From: Daphnia pulex | Lineage: Eukaryota; Arthropoda; Branchiopoda; Diplostraca; Daphniidae | Assembly (NCBI RefSeq): GCF_021134715.1 | Contig: NC_060019.1 | Location: forward strand, 7,130,001 to 7,194,000 | Direction of reading: 5' to 3' | DNA: 64,000 nt | Part shown: positions 11,117 through 22,099 of the stretch, piece by piece | How the letters are laid out: each line of letters starts with the position of its first letter | Position numbering within the stretch: the first letter of the stretch is position 1 | The notes under the pieces: model-generated | Databases searched by the model: none | What the model was told of the DNA's origin: nothing | What the model saw: the letters and a program-made list of their open reading frames with translations, nothing else | Translations under genes and position numbers: made by a program

Positions 11117-11492
11117 CTAAGTTGAAAACAAAAGTCATCAGTTTTCAAACTTTGCCGCCATTTTGCAAATGAAGCTCGTATTGTGAACTCACTTTATTGT
11201 ATGTAGTCGAAAGTGTGTCTAATACCTAGAAAGACGAAGGTGAAATTTAAATATACTCATCTTCTCGCACGAACTCTCCACTTGAGTTTGTAGCCCTGGT
11301 TGAGGGGTTATTACTATAAGTTGTTTAAATGATTAGTTCGTTATTTAACACGTAAATTACAGGCAAAAGTATTTGCTTTCGAGTTTCGAGTCACGGTCAA
11401 CTTAGCCCAAACGAGACAAACATTTTAGCTCGATTGACGTCTGTATTGAGTCATCTGGTGGCGCACGAACGAACTCGCCGATGCCACACAAT
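11117..11492. other. 5' flank of Myb/SANT gene
   Basis: Non-coding; probable promoter of the minus-strand Myb/SANT gene, ending at the left border of the 8.4-kb TIR unit. Confidence 0.5.
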
Positions 11493-11882
11493 TATGGCAT
11501 GCCGTGGGGACAATCTGTTTCCTTAAAATTGGAAGCTTGAATTTTAAAAAATACTTATTTAAATATTAAAGTAAATGCTTAATTACATTCAATTCTCTTA
11601 TCTTTCTATTAACTTTTAATGTGTTTAAGTCTTAAATTTAAAAATAAAATTTTCAATGTTGAACGCTAAACGGCTAAAGTAGAAGTCTATCGCTGAAATT
11701 TGAAGTCTCAAGTATGTGAATTCGGTGTCTACTAGCGCCACCTATCAGTGAAAATACATACTCAAAAGGGCAATAGCTGTATTTAGGTATTGTTCACTAT
11801 TCTGCGGAATGTCGCGGGAGCACAAATCGAACAAGTCACTTCAAACTTTGATTTCGTTTACCGTCGTAAAATTACGAGTTCT
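11493..11882 (+). repeat. Left terminal inverted repeat (390 bp) of 8.4-kb unit
   Basis: Near-perfect inverted match to 19472-19860. Differences seen by eye include single-base changes near the TAGCGCC/AAGCGCC position and a short indel near AAGTCACTTC. Confidence 0.85.
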
Positions 11883-12164
11883 TTGACGATTTTTACGAGA
11901 ATTTGAATTGAAATTTGATGCAGGCGTTGTAAGTAACGTTGTTAGTCAAAACAATGTTACTCGTGTCTCGTTTTAAAAAGAACATTTTATAAGACAATAT
12001 CGCCAGAGGATATCCCTTGTCTTTTTTGTTTTAATGTTGAATTTGCTTCCTCTTCCAAGAGATAATGATGCTTCTACTACAGTCTATAGCGAACCCTTTG
12101 GAAAAATTCTTTAGTAGTTTTATGGATGCATTCCACCGTGGGTGAAAGTAAAATTTCCCAAATC

Positions 12165-13796
12165 ATGAAAATCCTAGTCGTTAGTCTTCTTCTCTTCCTT
12201 CAGGTAAAAATCGATTGATTATTATTATATTTTGTCTCTCGTCAAAAATGTGAATTGAAATCCAACAAGGGTATTCAATCAGCGCCATGGTCTCCGTCTT
12301 GTCCTCACGAATGCTGGTGTCACGAATCCTACTTGGCCAGCATAGTCGACGAATGGCATCTACTCAATAAAATGCAGCCGGATTCATCCACCAGCCCCAA
12401 TAGCAGCGCCCTTAATGACCTATTATTCCGTGCCGTAATTTGTGTCCAACAACACGACATGGAAATTGAAACCCTATTGGCCCGCTTGCCGTCTCAAACC
12501 GAGGTTCGTTGGAATACCTATAAATATCCTTCAATAACCGTGTCTAATGAATTTCAAATGAATTTTTAATAGGCCATGAAGATTATCCAAGCATCCGACG
12601 CACCGGAAATCCGCTTGACGGCCACTCATTTGTCGAAATTTGTCAACTTGAGAGCTCTGGGTCTCGAAGGATCTCAACAACAGGAGTCTAGTAGTGCGCC
12701 ATCAATCATTTTACATTCGGATAGCCTCAAATCTTTGATTCAACTTCAATATTTGAGTCTTGTCAACTTGGAATTGCTGGATCAGCCTTCGCCGGAACCG
12801 GTCACGGTGGTCGAAATAGCCGACGACGAACAATCAGCCCCTTCACAACGGTTGACGTATGACGTTCCCGAAGAAATCCTGCCTTACGAAGAGTTCAAAA
12901 AGTTGCACCAACAAACGGAACTAAGCGTTCCGTGGAATGGCTTTTCAATGTTGACCCAACTCGAGTATTTGCTGATCGTCGGTTGCCAGTTGCCGGAAGC
13001 TTTTAGCACGGGTCACTCTGGTGCGTTCACGAGTCTGAGTCATCTGAAAGAGTTGACCATCCGCACGAGTCAACTGCGAGTGCGGCTGGAAATGGAACCG
13101 GGCGATTTAATGGAATTGGAATCCCTTTCGCTAGCGGACAACGAGTTGCTGGAGATCAAGCCGGGTGAGCTGCAAGGAATGGGCGCACTCCAGCAGCTCG
13201 ATCTGTCCGGTAATCAGTTGACTCACCTCACCGAAAACTCTTTCCCTTTCCTGCCCGATTTGGAATCGCTGGATTTGAGCGACAATCCGCTTTCGACTCT
13301 CTACCCAAACACTTTCGCCAACGTCTCGTCCATCCGCCGCCTTTTACTCGGATCTTATCGCTGGAAGGAAGGCGAAATCGTCGTCAACCGAGAGCCCTTG
13401 GAAGGCATGCAGGTCGTTTCCATGGAGTTTGAACCTGACAGTTTCAACGGATTGGTGAAATTGCAGGAGCTCTGGATCAGTCAGGGCCCCCCTTGAAGGA
13501 AATAAAAGCCTCGATTCAAACTACTTTAAAGATTTGCTTTCCATTTCCGAGTTGCATCTACGCGGGCGGATCGTATCGATCGACGCCGACACGTTCAAGG
13601 CCAACCGACGACTTCAACATCTCGACTTGAAAAACTGTCAACTCCGCCGCTTGAGCGTCGACGCTTTCCAATCGTTACGCAAATTGCGCCTTTTAGACCT
13701 GTCGTCCAACCAACTGGTCCAGCTTCCGCCGGGCCTGTTCGACCCTGTCGTCTCGTTAAAAGAATTGTGGCTCAACGGCAACAAGTTGACGACTGA
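12165..13796 (+). pseudogene. Leucine-rich-repeat extracellular protein, truncated and frameshifted
   Basis: An exon with a signal-peptide-like start (12165-12203, MKILVVSLLLFLQ) splices to 12270-12503, which carries a Cys-rich LRR N-cap (CPHECWC). That splices to 12573 onward, with many LRRs of the type LxxLxLxxNxLxxL; examples are LESLSLADNELLEI and LQQLDLSGNQLTHL. The frame breaks at about 13485 (run of C residues, then TGA). LRR coding resumes in another frame from about 13534 (LRLLDLSSNQLVQLPPGLF) until it is cut by the left end of the nested element at 13795. No C-terminal cap or membrane anchor remains. It is a decayed fragment lying inside the 8.4-kb TIR unit. The parent gene cannot be named. 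Confidence 0.75.
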
Positions 13797-16505
13797 CGTA
13801 ATATTTTGGGGGGAGCAACTCTTTAGGCGTGAAAATGTGTTCACAGCTCGAAGCAGAGCAATTTTTCCCTTCTGTTTCTTGGCCAGCAATATCGGATGGG
13901 GGTCTATTGTTGGTGTTGGTCTCCTGTATTGGAATACGCTGCTTTATTTGAAAATTCTGAGTTTTTTAAACGATTGTAAATCAAATGAAATCATACTGAA
14001 GAAAAGTAAAGACAATGCGCTGCTGATATATATATTTCTTCCTTTTTTTATGTGTGTAGGGCCAGATCCAATGCTGCTAATTACAACTGATCGAGATATT
14101 CGCTTCTTCTCAAAGAGTATGGACTCGTTGTATCAGGCATTTCACAAACGCACGGCGTCGCAGCTGATTATGAAGATGGGGTCGTCTACTGGAATGAAAA
14201 GAGCGAGGGCAAGGCTGGTATTTACAAATCCATGTTGGATGGATCAGCTTTCCAGTACGTTGTTTCGGTTGGTGTGGAGATTGTTGAAGACTTGGTGATC
14301 GACTGGGTTGGCAGACACATTTATTTCGCGGACTCCGGCCGGAAGCACATCGTCGTTTGCGATTTTTATGCTGCCATTTGCAGTGTTGTCATTAGTGGAC
14401 AACTAGACAAATCTCGTGCCGTGGCCGTCTATCCTGAAGAGGGTTTGCTTTTCTGGTCTGACTGGAGTTCTAGTTCACACATTGGTTCTGCTGGCATGGA
14501 TGGATCGCAGCGGACAAACGTAATCACGGCAGACATTATTTGGCCTAATGGATTGGCTGTGGACGAAACCATTCAACGTATTTATTGGGTAGACGCCAAA
14601 CTCAATCGCATTGAAAGTTCGCGGATTGATGGATCCGATCGTAAAATCCTTCCCGTTAAAGTGACCCATCCGTACGCTCTCGATATATTTGAAAACACAA
14701 TCTTTTGGTGCGATCCTCTGGAGCACGAAGTTCTTTCCGTCAACAAGTTTACCGGCAAGGATTATAAGGTATTATTTATCTTCAGATTTGCGAGTCAATG
14801 ATGGCAAGTAAATTCTGAAAATCCAACTTTTCCAGATTTTGATCAAGGAAGCTTCGATAACTCCAACTGGCATCCACGTTCATCATCCTTACAAGCAAAG
14901 CCATCTCACCAACCCCTGTCGAAACGTGATTTGCAGCCATCTCTGTCTTCTTTCACCAACTCCTACAAGGTTATAAGTGCGCTTGCCCTGTCGGAATGAC
15001 TTTGAACAAACACGGTCGTACCTGCGAGTCTATTTCCGCTCATGAATCTTCCATCGTCATCGCAACTTACACCGACATCTATCGCATGACTCATCACCAG
15101 ATTGGCAAGGATTCCGTCTTTCGTCTGCCTACGCGTAACGTGGAATACATCGGTGCATTGGCGTACAGCCCCTTAGGCCACTCAATCGTCTACAGCGACA
15201 TGATTCAGAGGACGATCTACTCGATCCACCTGGATACTTATCGACAGACGGTTCTCTTCGAAAACGTCGACATGGTCGAGGGGTTGGACGTGGATCCCTT
15301 CACGGAGAACATTTACTGGACGGAAGTTACTCGGGAAACTGTTGTAGTTGGCCAAAAGAAACACGATGGTAGTTACGACCGTCTAGTATTGGCCCGAAAT
15401 CTTAACAGCCCCCAAGGTGTTACCATTGGATCCCAATCCGGCAGGATGTTCATCGTCGAGGGCCGCATCAGTCACGTCATCAGCGTTTGGCATATGGATG
15501 GAACTAACCGACAGGAGTTGGTCAAAGTTCGTAGAATTGTATCGGCGATGGCTTACGACGGCAAACATCTACTTCAGCGCCTCCCTGCGAGGTACAATTG
15601 AACGGATCGAAGTCAACGGTGAAAATCGAACCATCCTTCGCTCTCATCTGGGCACTCCGGTTGCCATGGACGTCAGTGCAGATTCCGTCTTTTGGCTGAC
15701 TCAATCCTCCACTCGCATCAGCTGGTTGAACAAGCAAGAGACGAAAACTATGCGCGGCTTCGTTATCGACGCTTCCGACGACATAACTGTTCAGTATCGT
15801 TTGATGTCCGATCGATTTCAACAGTCACGATCATCATTGCTTGGGGGATACTAGAGGTTGTAGCGACATTTACGCACCAACACCTGATGGAGTCACTTGC
15901 CTATGTCCATTGGGTAAAGTATTGGGAGAAGATAAACACGCATGTACTAAAGCCGACTGCGTTGGTGTTGAATGGTTTAAATGTCGAACCAGTTGTATTC
16001 CCGCCAAGTACCGATGCGATGGGGTCAACGATTGTGCCCTAGGTGAAGATGAGCTCCAGCGCCGCAACACGACGACAGAAGTAAAGTATTCTTTAAAGGT
16101 AGGTAATATAAATTACTTTTTTCTGAAAAAGACCGAGTGATTGTAAGGTGTGAAAGTGAATGCTTAGATGGATTAGGGCAATAATAGGCGTGGTTAACCG
16201 TTCTACAATTAGATGGGTAGGGAGAAGAAATGTCAACACGCACTGACGAGCTCTCCTTTACCGAAGATTACATCAGCAGCGCATTGTCTTTTCTTCAGTA
16301 TAATTTCATTTGGTTTACAATCGTTTACAAACTCAGAATTTTCAAATAAAGCAGCGTATTCCGTTACAGGAGACCAACACCAACAATAGACCCCCCTGCC
16401 GATATTGCTGGCCAAGAAACAGAAGGGAAAAATTACTTAGTGCTTCGAGCTGTGAACACATTATCACGCCTAAAGAAAGAGTTGCTCCCCCCAAAATATT
16501 ACGTC
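13795..16505. mobile_element. Nested 2.7-kb TIR unit carrying an LRP fragment
   Basis: The left arm 13795-14027 and right arm 16271-16505 are inverted copies of about 234 bp, starting GACGTAATATTTTGGGGGGA, with several substitutions and small indels. ACT occurs on both outer sides (13792-13794 and 16506-16508), a possible 3-bp target duplication as in PIF/Harbinger elements. The left arm interrupts the LRR fragment exactly where the LRR pattern stops. The payload is a frameshifted LRP-type receptor fragment. I see no transposase. It is probably a non-autonomous element that captured host DNA and then inserted into, or formed within, the larger unit. Confidence 0.7.
14060..16080 (+). pseudogene. 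LRP/LDL-receptor-family fragment (YWTD, EGF, LDLa), decayed
   Basis: Coding homology in order is YWTD propeller repeats (14160-14769; IYWVDAKLNRIESSRIDG, WPNGLAVD), a 66-bp intron, an EGF module (NPCRNVICSHLCL then GYKCACPVG), and a second propeller (14996-15780; ENIYWTEV, GLDVDPF). A second EGF-like piece (CLCPLGKVLGED) and one LDLa repeat (CIPAKYRCDGVNDC, about 15955-16055) follow. At least four frame changes are visible: near 14130, near 14965, near 15590 and near 15850. Each continues the same homology in a new frame, so it is a pseudogene. The domain order resembles the C-terminal ectodomain of LRP proteins; the exact member is unclear. It begins just after an acceptor-like TGTGTGTAG. 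Confidence 0.8.
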
Positions 16506-17154
16506 ACTGGTTCTTAATTTATTTTTAAAAATACGTTTTTTTTTGTTCTGAAAAATATGTGTAAGATTAAAAACTGAAAGATGACTTTAATGTTATATAA
16601 TACGAGTGTATTATGAAGAAGCTTTGTTACTTTTGCCACGCAGCGTATAGAATATAGAATATCGAAATTTCTCAACACATACACATGTTATGTAAACATT
16701 CACTGAAGCGTGGATGCTGCCCGTCTATTGTATAAAATGTTTATGGTTCTGAACGATCATCGACAGGTGCGTTGGGTTTGACGACTAATGCGCTTTTCAT
16801 CTCACCCAAAACATGTTACTTTTAACCAAGAACAAAACTCAAAAAAAGGGATCAAAACCTTAATTCTAATTTCATTTTGAGAAATTTTGAATTTTTTTTC
16901 TAATTTATGAAGTTTCTCTTATTGCGGTGCAGACAAGAGGATAGTGTCATCTCTGGATCCCAGACGGCGTTGTAAATTCACTTCCAAAAGCAGCACTAGA
17001 TAGAGCTTTTTGACGATTGTAGTCGTCTGCTTTTCGTGGTTTGTCATTTATCCACATGTCTTTTTCTTCTTCGTGTTTTCAGTAAAACTTTTTTACTTGA
17101 AGTCAAAGTTATTACAGATTTTTAAAGTATTTTCAAGTGAAAAAGGAAGGAAGA

Positions 17155-19270
17155 ATGGAGGACCATGTTGATGAAGACAAGAAAAAGGCTCACCGGGAAC
17201 GCCGTGCTGGTAAACTATTTTGCAGCACACAGTATTTGAAGACTATAGCATTTAACGATGGTTGAAAAATTATTAGGGCGCAAAGCGGACAAGAAAAATT
17301 CAAGGATCCACACATCCAAGAAATGGATGAGAAAAGCTTTTGCTATCCAGTCATTAGCCAAGGCTCGGAAACATTTTCACAGGTAAATCGGTTTGGTTCA
17401 GCCCAGATCAATCAAATCTTGCATGACATGTCTTTCATAGCTGACCAAAATTTATTTCCCACGTTGGTTAGCAATTTCTTATTCTTTTCTTTTTTTTTCA
17501 GGGCCCGTAAATGAAAAAGCAGCATATTCCATTACTAGACAGGACTCCCCTAGAACCCACACCAATCATGGTAGCCATTGTTGGCCAACCTCAAGTTGGA
17601 AAAAATACTCTTCTCCAAGCTCTAATAAAAAACTCTACACGAAAGAATATCACATCCATACAGGGGCTCGTTACCATCGTCACGGGTAATGCGTTATCCG
17701 TTCATTATTACTAAAATGAATATCAAATAAATTTATTTCTCTGAAAAAATGTAGGGAAAGAAACGAAGGATGACTTTTATGGAATGCAATAACGACATCA
17801 ACTCGATAGACATCGCTAAAGTGGCTGACCTTGTTCTTGCTTGCTTTTGAGTTTTGACTGATGCTTCGTTTGGCTTCGAAATGGCAATTTTGAATTTCTC
17901 AACATCTGTCAGGTAAGGTCTACTGAAGCATACTCCTCATGTTCAAAATTAATGATCTCGAACGACTAACAGGTGCATGGATTTCACCGAGTAATGGGTG
18001 TTCTGACTCATTGGACATGTTCAAGTATAACAAGTAGCTGAAAAAACGAAACAAGTTCTGAAGCACAGATTTTTTAAAGAAGTGTACCAGGGAGCAAAAT
18101 TGTTTTACCTAACTCCACGGAACCTACCCTAAAAACGAGATCAAGAACCTCGGTCGCTTCATCTCGGTCATGAAATTCCGACCTCTGCTGTGGAGATTGA
18201 CTCTTCCTTACGTTTTGGTGGATCGGTTGGAAAACATGACACCTCCCAGTCGATTGCACGAGAATCTGAAATGCAATCGGGACATTTTCCTTTACGGTTT
18301 TGTCCGTGGTGTCCACTTGAGAAATCAATGTCCCGTCCACATCCCAGGCTGTGGTGATTTCCGCCTTAAATACGTTTCATTTCTTCCTGATCCTTCCCTT
18401 TACCGGATAAATTGAAGAAACGTTCGCTGGTCGAAAAGGAGAAGCTTATCTATGCCCCCATGTCTGGAGTGGGCGGTATCATCTACGACAAGGATTCCAT
18501 CTACATTGAGCTTGGCAGCAGTCACTCGCACTCCAAGCAGGAAGACCCTACGAATCCTAAATCAGAGATGATTTCGTCGCTGATGAAGTTGCAAAGGACG
18601 CTGGATGCGCAGATGTATGAATCGAGAGGAGAAGGACCTACTCTGACGCAGGCGCATGACGAGGACGAGGAACTACTAGACGATGACGGCGACGTATCCT
18701 ATAAACGAGAGATCCGCTGATCCTGTCATTGGGCTGGCGCCGATTTCAAAAAATTCCGCTCTACTCGATCCACGATCACAACGGACGTCACAGACAGCTC
18801 AAATACACGCCAGAGCATATGCACTGTACATCTTTGTTTTGGAATCCATTGACACCTGGAGACAAAGGTCTGCTGGCCATTCAGTCCATCTCTCAAGTTC
18901 AGGTACAATTCCCTAAATGTGTGATTGAAATTTGTCTTCAAAGTAATTTTCATTGTGATTTGTTTCTTGCTTTGGCATAGTCTGGATTTAGGCTGGATTT
19001 CGATTTGGACAAGTCGACTCAGATTGTCAAGAAACTCAAATTAGTCGACACGCCGTTACAGATTTAACGCAAAACGGCCTTCATCTAGGGCATGTTCTCG
19101 TCGACCCTGGAAATGGACAAATTCGATGTAGCATTCATCCGCAGCGTTTCCGGCATTCGCGGTCAGATTTAAAAAAGCCATCCGCAGTCCGGAAGGATCG
19201 TTCCGTGCCACTTTTGAAGAGAAAATCAAACTTAGCGGCAAATGCCGAAATGTTGTATATATTTTGAAGT
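17155..19270 (+). pseudogene. BMS1: BMS1 ribosome-biogenesis GTPase, internally deleted pseudogene
   Basis: BMS1 is the GTPase of the 40S processome. The N-terminal exons are 17155-17209, 17277-17382 and from 17502. They read MEDHVDEDKKKAHRERRAG, then KAFAIQSLAKARKHFHR, then an in-frame TGA at 17512, then QHIPLLDRTPLEPTPIMVAI. The P-loop reads GQPQVGKN, with Asn where Ser/Thr is essential. VADLVLACF is followed by TGA. From 18170 the homology continues (VMKFRPLLWRL, GCGDFRLKYVSFLPDP), with a 1-nt loss near 18405 before KKRSLVEKEKLIYAPMSGVG. At 18720 it jumps directly to the C-terminal region ([13 protein letters not shown]), so several hundred residues of the middle are missing. Introns are retained, so it came from genomic DNA and not from an mRNA. 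Confidence 0.85.
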
Positions 19271-19471
19271 TGATGGCGTTCCGCCTGATGCCGATTGTGT
19301 GTGACTACTTGTATCTTCAATGGAGACGTGACAAACGGAATACACTTTCAATTCCCGACTATTTTTCGTCGTATCTTTATCTTCAATCTGATGTGCAATT
19401 TACCATTTGAAATACGTTCCCATGTTAATAGGTCACACGTTGGGTGCTCGTTTCGAACTGGCTGGCGAATT

Positions 19472-19860
19472 AGAACTCGTAATTTTACGACGGTAAACGA
19501 AATCAAAGTTTGAAGGACTTGTTCGATTTGTGCTCCCGCGACATTCCGCAGAATAGTGAACAATACCTAAATACAGCTATTGCCCTTTTGAGTATGTATT
19601 TTCACTGATAGGTGGCGCTTGTAGACACCGAATTCACATACTTGAGACTTCAAATTTCAGCGATAGACTTCTACTTTAGCCGTTTAGCGTTCAACATTGA
19701 AAATTTTATTTTTAAATTTAAGACTTTAACACATTAAAAGTTAATAGAAAGATAAGAGAATTGAATGTAATTAAGCATTTACTTTAATATTTAAATAAGT
19801 ATTTTTTAAAATTTAAGCTTCCAATTTTAAGGAAACAGATTGTCCCCACGGCATGCCATA
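19472..19860 (-). repeat. Right terminal inverted repeat of 8.4-kb unit
   Basis: Inverted partner of 11493-11882. It abuts the end of the BMS1 fragment region and ends CGGCATGCCATA, followed by the CACAAT direct repeat. Confidence 0.85.
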
Positions 19861-19991
19861 CACAATAACAAAAAACCAACGGTTAGCGCACATTTGATCA
19901 TTTATACATACGAAAGTGATTATACATTTGTGGAATTCTTGGAAGTATTTAAAAAACAAAAGAATGCGAATTTTTAAAAGAGTTGATCAAT

Positions 19992-22099
19992 GGCTGTCCC
20001 TAAACTGCGAAAGCGAAACGCGAAACGCGAAACGCCTAAAATGCGGAAAAGCTGTGCGAAACGGACCCAAAAGTTGGGACCCTGTTTCGCATTTTAGGCC
20101 TTGGGTCCGTACTAAAATGCGAAATCGGTGGGTGCGAAACGTCAACAGAACGTCAACAGACGACGCCATTAACATACGTACTTGCGTCACAAAAATCTAC
20201 TCGTCAAGATAAAAACACCTTGCCTTCGAGTTAGTTTATCCTAGTTTCTGTTTTGTATATAATTCGTTAAATTAAAAGGATATTACAGTTTTGTGTATTT
20301 ACCTATTGTATTCATGATTTTGATTTGTGATTCACGTTATTTGCCATTCAATCACCGCAATACTTCTTAAACTTGGTATGTAATTTCGTGGGTTTTTGCA
20401 ATCTTTGTTGATGATCTAATGGAGGGAATGGATTGAATTTGACATAGTCAATTTATTGATTCCAAACTTAACTCATCTGATGTTTAAGATACTTTGTTTT
20501 TTCTAATATTTTTCTTTGCCCAACTAATTGATGCATTTTTTTTAGATAATTAAAGTCATGGGAGATGTCCACTTCATGAAACTCGCTTTGTCGTTTTGCT
20601 GAAGTAAGCTGTCTTTCTGCAAAGAAATAAATGAGAGTAAAGAAAAAACTTCCCAATGTGAGGTGACATGATGTTTCACCTGATACATTGTAACCTACAT
20701 TCTCTGAGGTATTTTTTAGTTAAAATTATCATGCTGTCTGTATGTTATTCTCATACTTGTCTGTTCTCACAGGTAATACATCTACTGTTTCTGAGGTGAC
20801 GGAAAAATGATGCAAGTGTTTTCTTTTCTAATCGCTTTTCTTGTTCAAAGCAATAATTTGGTTATCCCTGTCATAGAAAACCTTGGTGGAATTCTGAGAG
20901 TGGTAATAGTTCCATAGCTCATGCTGCCCAAGTAATAGTGTGGAGCAGGCGTATCTGTGCTTTACTTTTGCTACAAGCGCTAGAAGATTGGCATCACAAA
21001 TCAAATCTTTGTATTTTCAATCTACAATTCAGGTATCAAAGAATCATTTTTATGTTTAAGGAAAGTTTCGGTTCTTGATTTTTCTTCTTCTGTGATGGCT
21101 AGGTGGATTATACAATATGTGTGCATGTGCGCATGGAAAGTGCGTCGTGTCGATGACTTTGTCAACGGGGGAAAAATGTTAAGCTTAATTTGCTCGATAA
21201 TAGAATTTGTTTTAATCTTTTCTTCTTTTATTATCATTTATTTCATACCTCGGTTGAATCACTCATCAGCCCGTCCCAAGACGCATAGCTGACTTTTGAC
21301 TTCAATTTTTCATAATTTAAACCGAAATAGTGTAGCGGCTGAAGAAATAAAATTTGATTGCTCCCCCCTTTCAATGTCTTAAATAAAATAATCCCACAGC
21401 GGGGTACATTAACACATTGTTACGTCGTCGACGTTCTCTATGTCATTCGATCAATCTGTGTTTCTCTTAGCCGGAATTTCTTTCAACAGTTGTTCGCCGA
21501 GGAAAATCGGCTGACCAAGTCGAATGGAAAAACTATCAGCCGATAGCTGCAGCCCGGCGTCTAAATATATATAGCTATTCGATTGAAATTTATTGAAAAT
21601 GCCACCCAGCTAAAACGTGCTGAAAGCTTCTTCCGCCTCTATTCCACAAAGACTTAATAATTGGAGATTTCTCATTCAAGAGCTCATCCGAGGGACCCCC
21701 GTGCTCTTGAAGAAACAAGAGTAATCGAGTCGACTAAATAAATTTAATTTGATAAGACTGTTTTCCCATGAAATACAAACATTTTATTTTCAAAACTCTA
21801 GCGAAAAGTAATATTCGTTAATATATAGTGTACACACATTCATATCCATACATACATTCACATTACATATACTATGAGTCATGAAACATGGCGGCCTCAA
21901 CGGGCCTCATCCGTCAATTTGCACTCTGGTGGGGAAAAGAAAACATTTTCGTTTCGCATTTTGAGGTTTCGCATTTTAGTATGCCCTCCGGCATTTGGTC
22001 CCGCGAAACGGTCCAAAAATTTTGGTCCGTTTCGCACAGCCTTTCCGCATTTTAGGCGTTTCGCGTTTCGCGTTTCGCTTTCGCAGTTTAGGGACAGCC
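19992..22099. mobile_element. 2.1-kb TIR element with iterated GCGAAAC termini
   Basis: The inverted ends start GGCTGTCCCTAAACTGCGAA and match for about 80 bp (19992-20073 against 22018-22099). The 9-bp direct repeat TTGATCAAT flanks both sides (19983-19991 and 22100-22108). Each end contains tandem GCGAAAC units plus ATGCGGAA/ATGCGAAA motifs in both orientations, suggesting clustered transposase-binding sites. No credible ORF lies inside, so it is non-autonomous. The target size would fit a Mutator-like element, but the superfamily is not established. Confidence 0.8.

Follow-up and report, generated by a model that had tools for sequence, protein, structure and literature searches.

A 64,000-nt window of the Daphnia pulex genome (C3:7130001-7194000) contains, at positions 11493-19860, an 8,368-bp unit that is bounded by long terminal inverted repeats (TIRs) and packed with fragments of LRR, LRP, and BMS1 genes. 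The unit is a transposed element and not an inverted segmental duplication, because complete copies recur with their own flanks and target-site duplications, and one of them has an uninterrupted paralogous site. The reading preferred here, with a probability of about 0.8, is that of a non-autonomous, gene-packing TIR transposon of IS3EU type, which would have loaded its cargo stepwise, been moved by a transposase supplied in trans, and, in its copy on contig C10, gained further host DNA through a homology-led template switch.

The genome searched comprises 133,188,837 bases on 13 contigs, to which the numbers C3, C5, C6, and so on refer; the arm-search counts and the match lists for the cargo sources are lower bounds. 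At least four complete arm pairs are present, one in the window on C3 and the others at the following positions.

C9:2506727-2515105, C9 copy, duplication CAACATG (7 bp)
C8:5342002-5350475, C8 copy, duplication CACAAG with 4 extra bases at the left
C10:7145611-7155368, C10 copy, duplication TAGGGA with 3 extra bases at the right

All four copies end in TATGG...CCATA and share the order and junctions of their left 5.5 kb. With gaps excluded, they are 98.7-99.5% alike in the first 400 columns of the alignment (the C8 arms are 97% alike when gaps are counted). Their flanks are unlike where compared, except for one dispersed repeat near the window and C10 copies. The flanks of the C8 copy (1,496 bp left, 536 bp right) match C5 at 99.6-99.7%, and the two matches join at C5:1493744-1493751 without the element, so that this site represents an uninterrupted paralogous target. 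The terminal 21-mer, allowing up to three mismatches, has 17 matches in 133 Mb, compared with 0 for a reversed control. Of the matches, ten are exact, eight being the ends of the four copies and the other two lying at C3:3563904 and C5:2940760. An earlier note on the window had proposed transposition from the inverted arms and the flanking CACAAT repeat, and had suggested an arm search for other copies; the arms do recur, next to different duplications of 6-7 bp and, on C10, with cargo that is partly different. The outcomes that the note named as refuting are thereby contradicted, since the arms are present elsewhere and a paralogous empty site exists for one copy.

The window unit is organized as follows.

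11487..11492, unstranded, left target-site duplication CACAAT, directly outside the left end
11493..11882, plus strand, left TIR, 390 bp, beginning TATGGCATGCCGTGGGG (arm alignment and genome arm search)
11883..11912, unstranded, 30-bp spacer between the arm and the LRR piece, no source found
11913..13795, plus strand, LRR gene fragment with upstream DNA, start codon, intron, and truncated exon; source C9:1547461-1549331 (96.7%)
13789..14030, plus strand, left copy of the inner inverted repeat, about 91% to its right counterpart
14034..16083, plus strand, LRP (LDL-receptor-related) gene fragment; best source C9:7973516-7975587, minus strand (91.1%)
16100..16242, plus strand, second piece of the LRP locus; source C9:7971607-7971750, minus strand (93.8%), after about 1.8 kb of skipped source
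16242..16923, plus strand, unit of ~680 bp holding the right copy of the inner repeat (16269-16511); relative at C5:1484461-1485182 (73-79%)
16941..18686, plus strand, BMS1 gene 5′ part; source C5:1491424-1493180, minus strand (85.1%)
18689..19258, plus strand, BMS1 3′ part; source C5:1489116-1489702, minus strand (87.4%), after about 1.7 kb of skipped source
19294..19378, plus strand, final BMS1 piece; source C5:1488134-1488214, minus strand (83.5%)
19472..19860, minus strand, right TIR, 389 bp, ending in CCCCACGGCATGCCATA (arm alignment and genome arm search)
19861..19866, unstranded, right target-site duplication CACAAT, directly outside the right end

In a full alignment the arms, noted earlier as near-identical and ~390 bp long, show four differences (three base differences and one 1-nt gap), and an inverted-repeat search of the window recovers them as 345 nt at 99% plus 44 nt at 100%. 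Since they differ by 1% while the adjoining BMS1 cargo is strongly diverged (12-17% off its source), the earlier proposal that the arms are young or homogenised appears plausible, and homogenisation may have taken place.

The cargo pieces are identifiable at both the protein and the DNA level. Pfam, run on 10 of the 36 listed open reading frames (ORFs) of the unit, finds LRR_8 (E 2.3e-19 and 1e-24), Ldl_recept_b (4.4e-25), Ldl_recept_a (3.4e-7), and the AARP2CN domain of BMS1 (1.6e-23), and no polymerase B or capsid gene. A RIBIOP_C match at 18681-19199 crosses six stops, some of them perhaps intronic; at the C5 source, two of the three RIBIOP_C pieces are open and the third has one TAG, perhaps from intron read-through. 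Among the matches listed, the LRR search returns five, namely the four copies and C9:1547461-1549331. The LRR piece is contiguous with this source over 1,883 columns, including the intron and about 250 bp of DNA preceding the start codon (near 12165, read by eye), and its exon is truncated at 13795. Introns have thus been kept, as the earlier note stated; its description of an LRR fragment also holds, and that of strong decay does not, as a piece 96.7% identical to its source is not old. For LRP, the next-best source, C11:4062788-4064867 (90.1%), is nearly as close as the one on C9 (91.1%). The BMS1 source runs from C5:1493180 down to 1488134 (83.5-87.4%), with the missing middle that had been remarked upon lying at 18686/18689 and a further ~0.9 kb of source skipped after 19258; a second BMS1 locus, C5:3077048-3078811, has the 5′ part in common at 97%. 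The alignment to parental genes that the earlier note called for hence yields sources for all three fragments, at three distant places (C9:1.55 Mb, C9:7.97 Mb, and C5:1.49 Mb), and no arm match was found at the LRR, LRP, and BMS1 source loci (4.6, 7.1, and 13.6 kb examined).

The distribution of differences among the copies bears on when the cargo was taken up. Of 1,871 gap-free sites in the LRR piece, 50 depart from the source in every one of the four copies; each copy has 1-3 private differences, and six further sites vary in other patterns. In the LRP piece, 146 of 2,049 sites differ from the source in all copies, 1-5 are private, and 22 vary otherwise. Judging from these alignments, the LRR and LRP captures, and most of their divergence, predate the separation of the four copies, because nearly all divergence from the sources is common to them. 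BMS1 breaks this pattern and is a mosaic between copies. The unequal divergence of the pieces (LRR 3%, LRP 9%, BMS1 15%) suggests that BMS1 was captured before LRP, and LRP before LRR. An early capture of BMS1 is supported by two remnants, C3:3563903-3564789 and C5:2940255-2940783, which consist of an arm plus the BMS1 3′ end at 85% and 91%, respectively, with no LRR or LRP match on their inner side (8.5 and 10.9 kb examined).

The C10 copy has gained fresh host DNA. In 400-column windows, similarity among the copies is 96.8-100% as far as 16651, beyond which they become mosaic. Element-type BMS1 (window and C9 copies) is separated from gene-type BMS1 (both C5 loci) by 207 sites. The first 100 bases of the comparison (26 sites) are evenly mixed in both C8 and C10. 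The C10 copy is then element-type at 69 of 73 diagnostic sites in 17001-17500 and at 8 of 10 in 17501-17513, and gene-type at 96 of 98 in 17514-18700, which puts the switch at an estimated C10:7151770-7151860. Before this switch it is 77.4% identical to a C5 locus over 704 columns, and after it, 97.7% identical to the same locus (C5:3077732-3080185) over 2,459 columns. The copy then skips, with ~9 filler bases, to C5:3083476-3084196 (98.2% over 722 columns) and rejoins the right arm at 19494, where microhomology amounts to about one base. The fresh DNA amounts to ~3.2 kb; the match of C10 to the window ends at 18654, and ~2.1 kb of the gain falls past that point. The simplest reading of this alignment would be template switching, in the course of repair or replication, from the BMS1 piece of the element into a homologous host locus, after which synthesis went back to the arm. 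In the C8 copy, 18101-18600 forms a gene-type patch (29 of 31 sites, a count identical in C10); because C8 and C10 are nearly identical there, the patch may reflect shared history or exchange between copies.

Assignment of the unit to the IS3EU superfamily is supported by its ends, by its duplication length, and by an element of similar structure elsewhere in the genome. TA..TA termini are constant in complete IS3EU families, whose duplications are usually 6 bp (PMC10045372), and fungal representatives have TAYGG..CCRTA ends with arms of >30 bp (PMC12730594). All four copies have TA..TA termini, and the duplication is 6 bp in C3, C8, and C10 and 7 bp in C9. A published table gives IS3EU at 0.05% for D. 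pulex and 0.00% for D. magna (PMC8594854). The unit itself contains no PF24764 match in a search of the genome with this family, of which at least 91 exon-sized matches were obtained. PF24764, an integrase-core family, is taken here to represent the IS3EU transposase, an assumption afterwards supported by one element with IS3EU-like ends. That element, at C3:9151005-9157688, carries PF24764 exons between TATGG...CCATA ends with TAGCAG on both sides. Its arms span 1,349 columns at 98.6% identity, and its terminal 25-mer has four matches (its own two ends and two with three mismatches) versus 0 in the control. It resembles the unit in its ends, long arms, and 6-bp duplication; unlike the unit, it carries PF24764 exons, and its arms have no significant likeness to those of the unit. 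The autonomous relative sought by the earlier note has consequently been found at the level of the superfamily, and none was found with these arms. No transposase was recognized by eye among 7 ORFs near C9:8767608 and 11 near C10:5669484, both end-like matches, nor by Pfam in 6 tested ORFs from a C6 locus (9 ORFs) and the C3:3563904 locus (8 ORFs); nothing in these 6 ORFs reaches the cut-off, the matches being to retrotransposon-type families and a RanBP zinc ribbon, all of them weak. The likeness to plant Pack-MULEs drawn previously holds as an analogy, the ends fitting IS3EU better than Mutator.

A mechanism that would account for these features begins with the insertion of host DNA between two long arms in several steps, presumably as templates were switched while the element was being repaired or replicated, with BMS1 probably loaded before LRP and LRR. 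The loaded unit would then have moved whole to at least four places, most likely mobilised in trans by a transposase of IS3EU type. Within C10, the onboard BMS1 piece would have provided the homology for a switch into the second BMS1-like locus, from which about 3.2 kb would have been copied with one skip before synthesis returned to the right arm. The ends, duplications, four copies, C8 empty site, source loci, common LRR and LRP divergence, and C10 switch are direct observations; the capture order, the supply of transposase in trans, and the repair pathway are inferred.

Several observations weigh against this reading. The empty site is paralogous and pertains to the C8 copy only, and 3-4 extra bases separate the end from the duplication in C8 and C10. 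The capture order derived from unequal divergence is confounded by selection on the source genes and is weakened by the BMS1 mosaic between copies. The C5 remnant is at odds with a simple age reading, as its arm blocks are 78% and 97% alike; BMS1 pieces 94-97% alike also lie 10 kb from it in opposite orientation. Eight PF24764 loci were inspected for ends, with 3.3-7.5 kb of DNA each where no ends were seen: complete TATGG-type ends occur at one, a second has arms running off the piece, and the remaining six show no such ends within the 3.3-7.5 kb examined, two of these six containing other inverted repeats. By-eye comparison places none of the at least 91 PF24764 matches within 20 kb of the 17 terminal matches. 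Duplication length alone (6-7 bp in the unit) does not exclude Mutator, because 4-10 bp is given for the IS256/MuDR group (PMC10045372).

This last point bears on the alternative that the unit belongs to a different superfamily of TIR transposons (Mutator, Dada, P, or Polinton-like) and has TATGG ends by chance, which is unlikely. FB4, placed by Tan et al. in MULE, is also long-armed (PMC8277862), and duplications of 6 bp are given for Polinton (PMC10045372) and of 6-7 bp for Dada (PMC3706591), in addition to the IS256/MuDR range. The duplications of FB4, however, are 9-10 bp (PMC8277862), the combination of TAYGG..CCRTA with 6 bp is the published description of IS3EU (PMC10045372, PMC12730594), and the PF24764 element of this genome has just such a structure. 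Dada, considered for its duplication length, is disfavoured, as the U6 and U1 families were found to lack terminal inverted repeats (PMC3706591) and the arms here are ~390 bp long. An inverted segmental duplication flanked by a chance 6-bp repeat has a negligible probability. Only large size and host-gene content speak for it, and it would need homologous flanks, where those compared are unlike save for the dispersed repeat near two copies; the four places, common ends, matching duplications, uninterrupted C8 site, and recurrence of the end sequence without a partner in older remnants all contradict it.

Two further alternatives concern the cargo. That it was taken at once from a pre-existing chimeric locus would fit the order and junctions common to the four copies over the left 5.5 kb, and is nevertheless improbable to a high degree: the source loci lie far apart, the pieces have diverged unequally, the two arm-plus-BMS1 remnants lack LRR and LRP matches in the 8.5 and 10.9 kb on their inner side, C10 shows a later and separate gain, and no armless LRR-LRP-BMS1 locus is present among the matches listed. 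Slightly less credit still is due to the cargo being a working chimeric gene under selection and not passive freight. The LRR piece does retain upstream DNA and a start codon, and the nonsynonymous:synonymous counts of the common changes (14:11 in the LRR exon, 73:67 in LRP) are below the authors' expectation for free drift. Yet a one-base frame shift at 13493, present in all four copies, splits the LRR exon, which is open over 406 amino acids in the source, and constraint on the source genes alone can account for the ratio. From its coding state, the cargo is thus unlikely to function as a gene.

Within the unit, the inner inverted repeat (13789-14030/16269-16511) is nested and encloses the LRP piece. 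Its appearance suggests a nested transposon around LRP, but the C5 relative stays homologous past the outer edge of the inner repeats (16242-16831, in one block); because of this continuity, an inverted duplication is the likelier origin. The relative in question, C5:1484461-1485182, is the sole other relative of 16242-16923 among the matches listed; it is inverted relative to the BMS1 gene and sits some 3 kb past the final BMS1 match of that contig.

Several other loci share sequence with the element or its surroundings. A lone 300-bp arm fragment at C6:6943322-6943621, 98% identical and truncated at both ends, directly adjoins local C6 sequence that recurs at 98-100% identity at C6:6881755 and C6:6930652. 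A 1.4-kb unit (C3:7063896-7065317), some 65 kb to the left of where the window begins, has inverted ends 78% alike and 66-76% similarity to the arms, and is perhaps a short, old relative. PF24764 exons also lie at C10:3290800-3296179, enclosed by inverted arms (99.8% over at least 2,006 columns) that extend past the piece examined. The stretch C5:1493217-1495239, immediately upstream of the BMS1 source, recurs on C8 at 99.6-99.7% identity (flanks within C8:5340502-5351009); this duplicated stretch, the target of the C8 insertion, is possibly another young transposon. The dispersed repeat, TTTCGCATTTTAGGCGTTTCGCG..., occurs in the window at 19997-20143, about 140 bp right of the unit, and at 22003-22094, and its end also flanks the C10 copy at the left edge. 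A search for the joined flanks of C10, with 40 of 107 candidates scored, gave 40 matches, of which 2 are its own flanks and 38 are the left-side repeat (one of them that of the window); no site with both flanks joined appeared among those scored, and the result therefore shows just that the C10 insertion lies at the edge of the repeat. The terminal 24-mer has 0 matches in viral contigs.

Packing TIR elements are already known in animals, as are IS3EU elements with passenger genes in fungi (PMC12730594). Tan et al. describe 370 animal Pack-TIRs in 100 genomes, of which 87.2% are hAT or TcMariner and four are multicopy (PMC8277862). As in those cases, the unit holds sourced host DNA between two TIRs, its sources are not flanked by the same TIR in the DNA examined, and, like the few multicopy ones, which have distinct duplications and spread by transposition (PMC8277862), it occupies four loci with distinct duplications, the right part being altered in C10. 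It differs in having 7.6 kb inside, drawn from three sources. The survey required an inner sequence of ≤5 kb and one unique best source (PMC8277862), so that the unit would escape it by design; IS3EU is named 0 times in its main text. Ssk-FB4 of Drosophila likewise has long arms, several loci, distinct duplications, and a captured gene drawn with introns (Fig. 3 legend), and is set apart by its single gene, 9-10-bp duplications, and assignment to MULE (PMC8277862). Pack-MULEs of plants also carry gene fragments between TIRs and depend on a transposase in trans; they belong to another superfamily, and none of the Jiang et al. 2004 set is longer than the full-length element of 7 kb, most being 1-2 kb (PMC6431247). 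Fungal IS3EU elements share the TAYGG..CCRTA ends, 6-bp duplications, and additional genes inside; those genes are of the TET/JBP and alpha-kinase kinds and accompany a transposase encoded by the element itself (PMC12730594), whereas the cargo of the present unit consists of fragments of host genes, with no transposase found among them. A literature search on captured gene fragments in Daphnia gave a paper on DINE-1. In a literature search, with preprints and most subscription journals outside its scope, no multi-gene animal Pack-TIR and none of IS3EU type was found; the earlier view that a multi-gene animal case would be notable is borne out to this extent, packing as such being established in animals.

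Template-switching steps have been proposed for Pack-TIR capture by Tan et al. (PMC8277862), and the C10 gain resembles them, with the added feature that onboard homology selects the donor. A broader proposal, tentative and given slightly less than even odds, is that the IS3EU transposons of this animal collect host DNA serially: cargo homology would prime switches into related genes, repeatedly extending and refreshing the cargo, as the C10 gain and the C8 patch may illustrate, and the same repair would keep the arms alike.

Pack-type elements are one route for exon shuffling by DNA transposons. The animal cases surveyed are mostly single-copy, with one source each and inner sequence searched to 5 kb (PMC8277862). 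Here, an 8.4-9.8-kb multi-source, multicopy unit, apparently of IS3EU type, is found in one assembly together with the source loci, an empty site, and a recent template switch, which makes the capture mechanism testable from sequence alone. The unit offers a view of how such elements gather genes, and, if they are serial collectors, the donor choice of pack-type elements would be predictable from their existing cargo.

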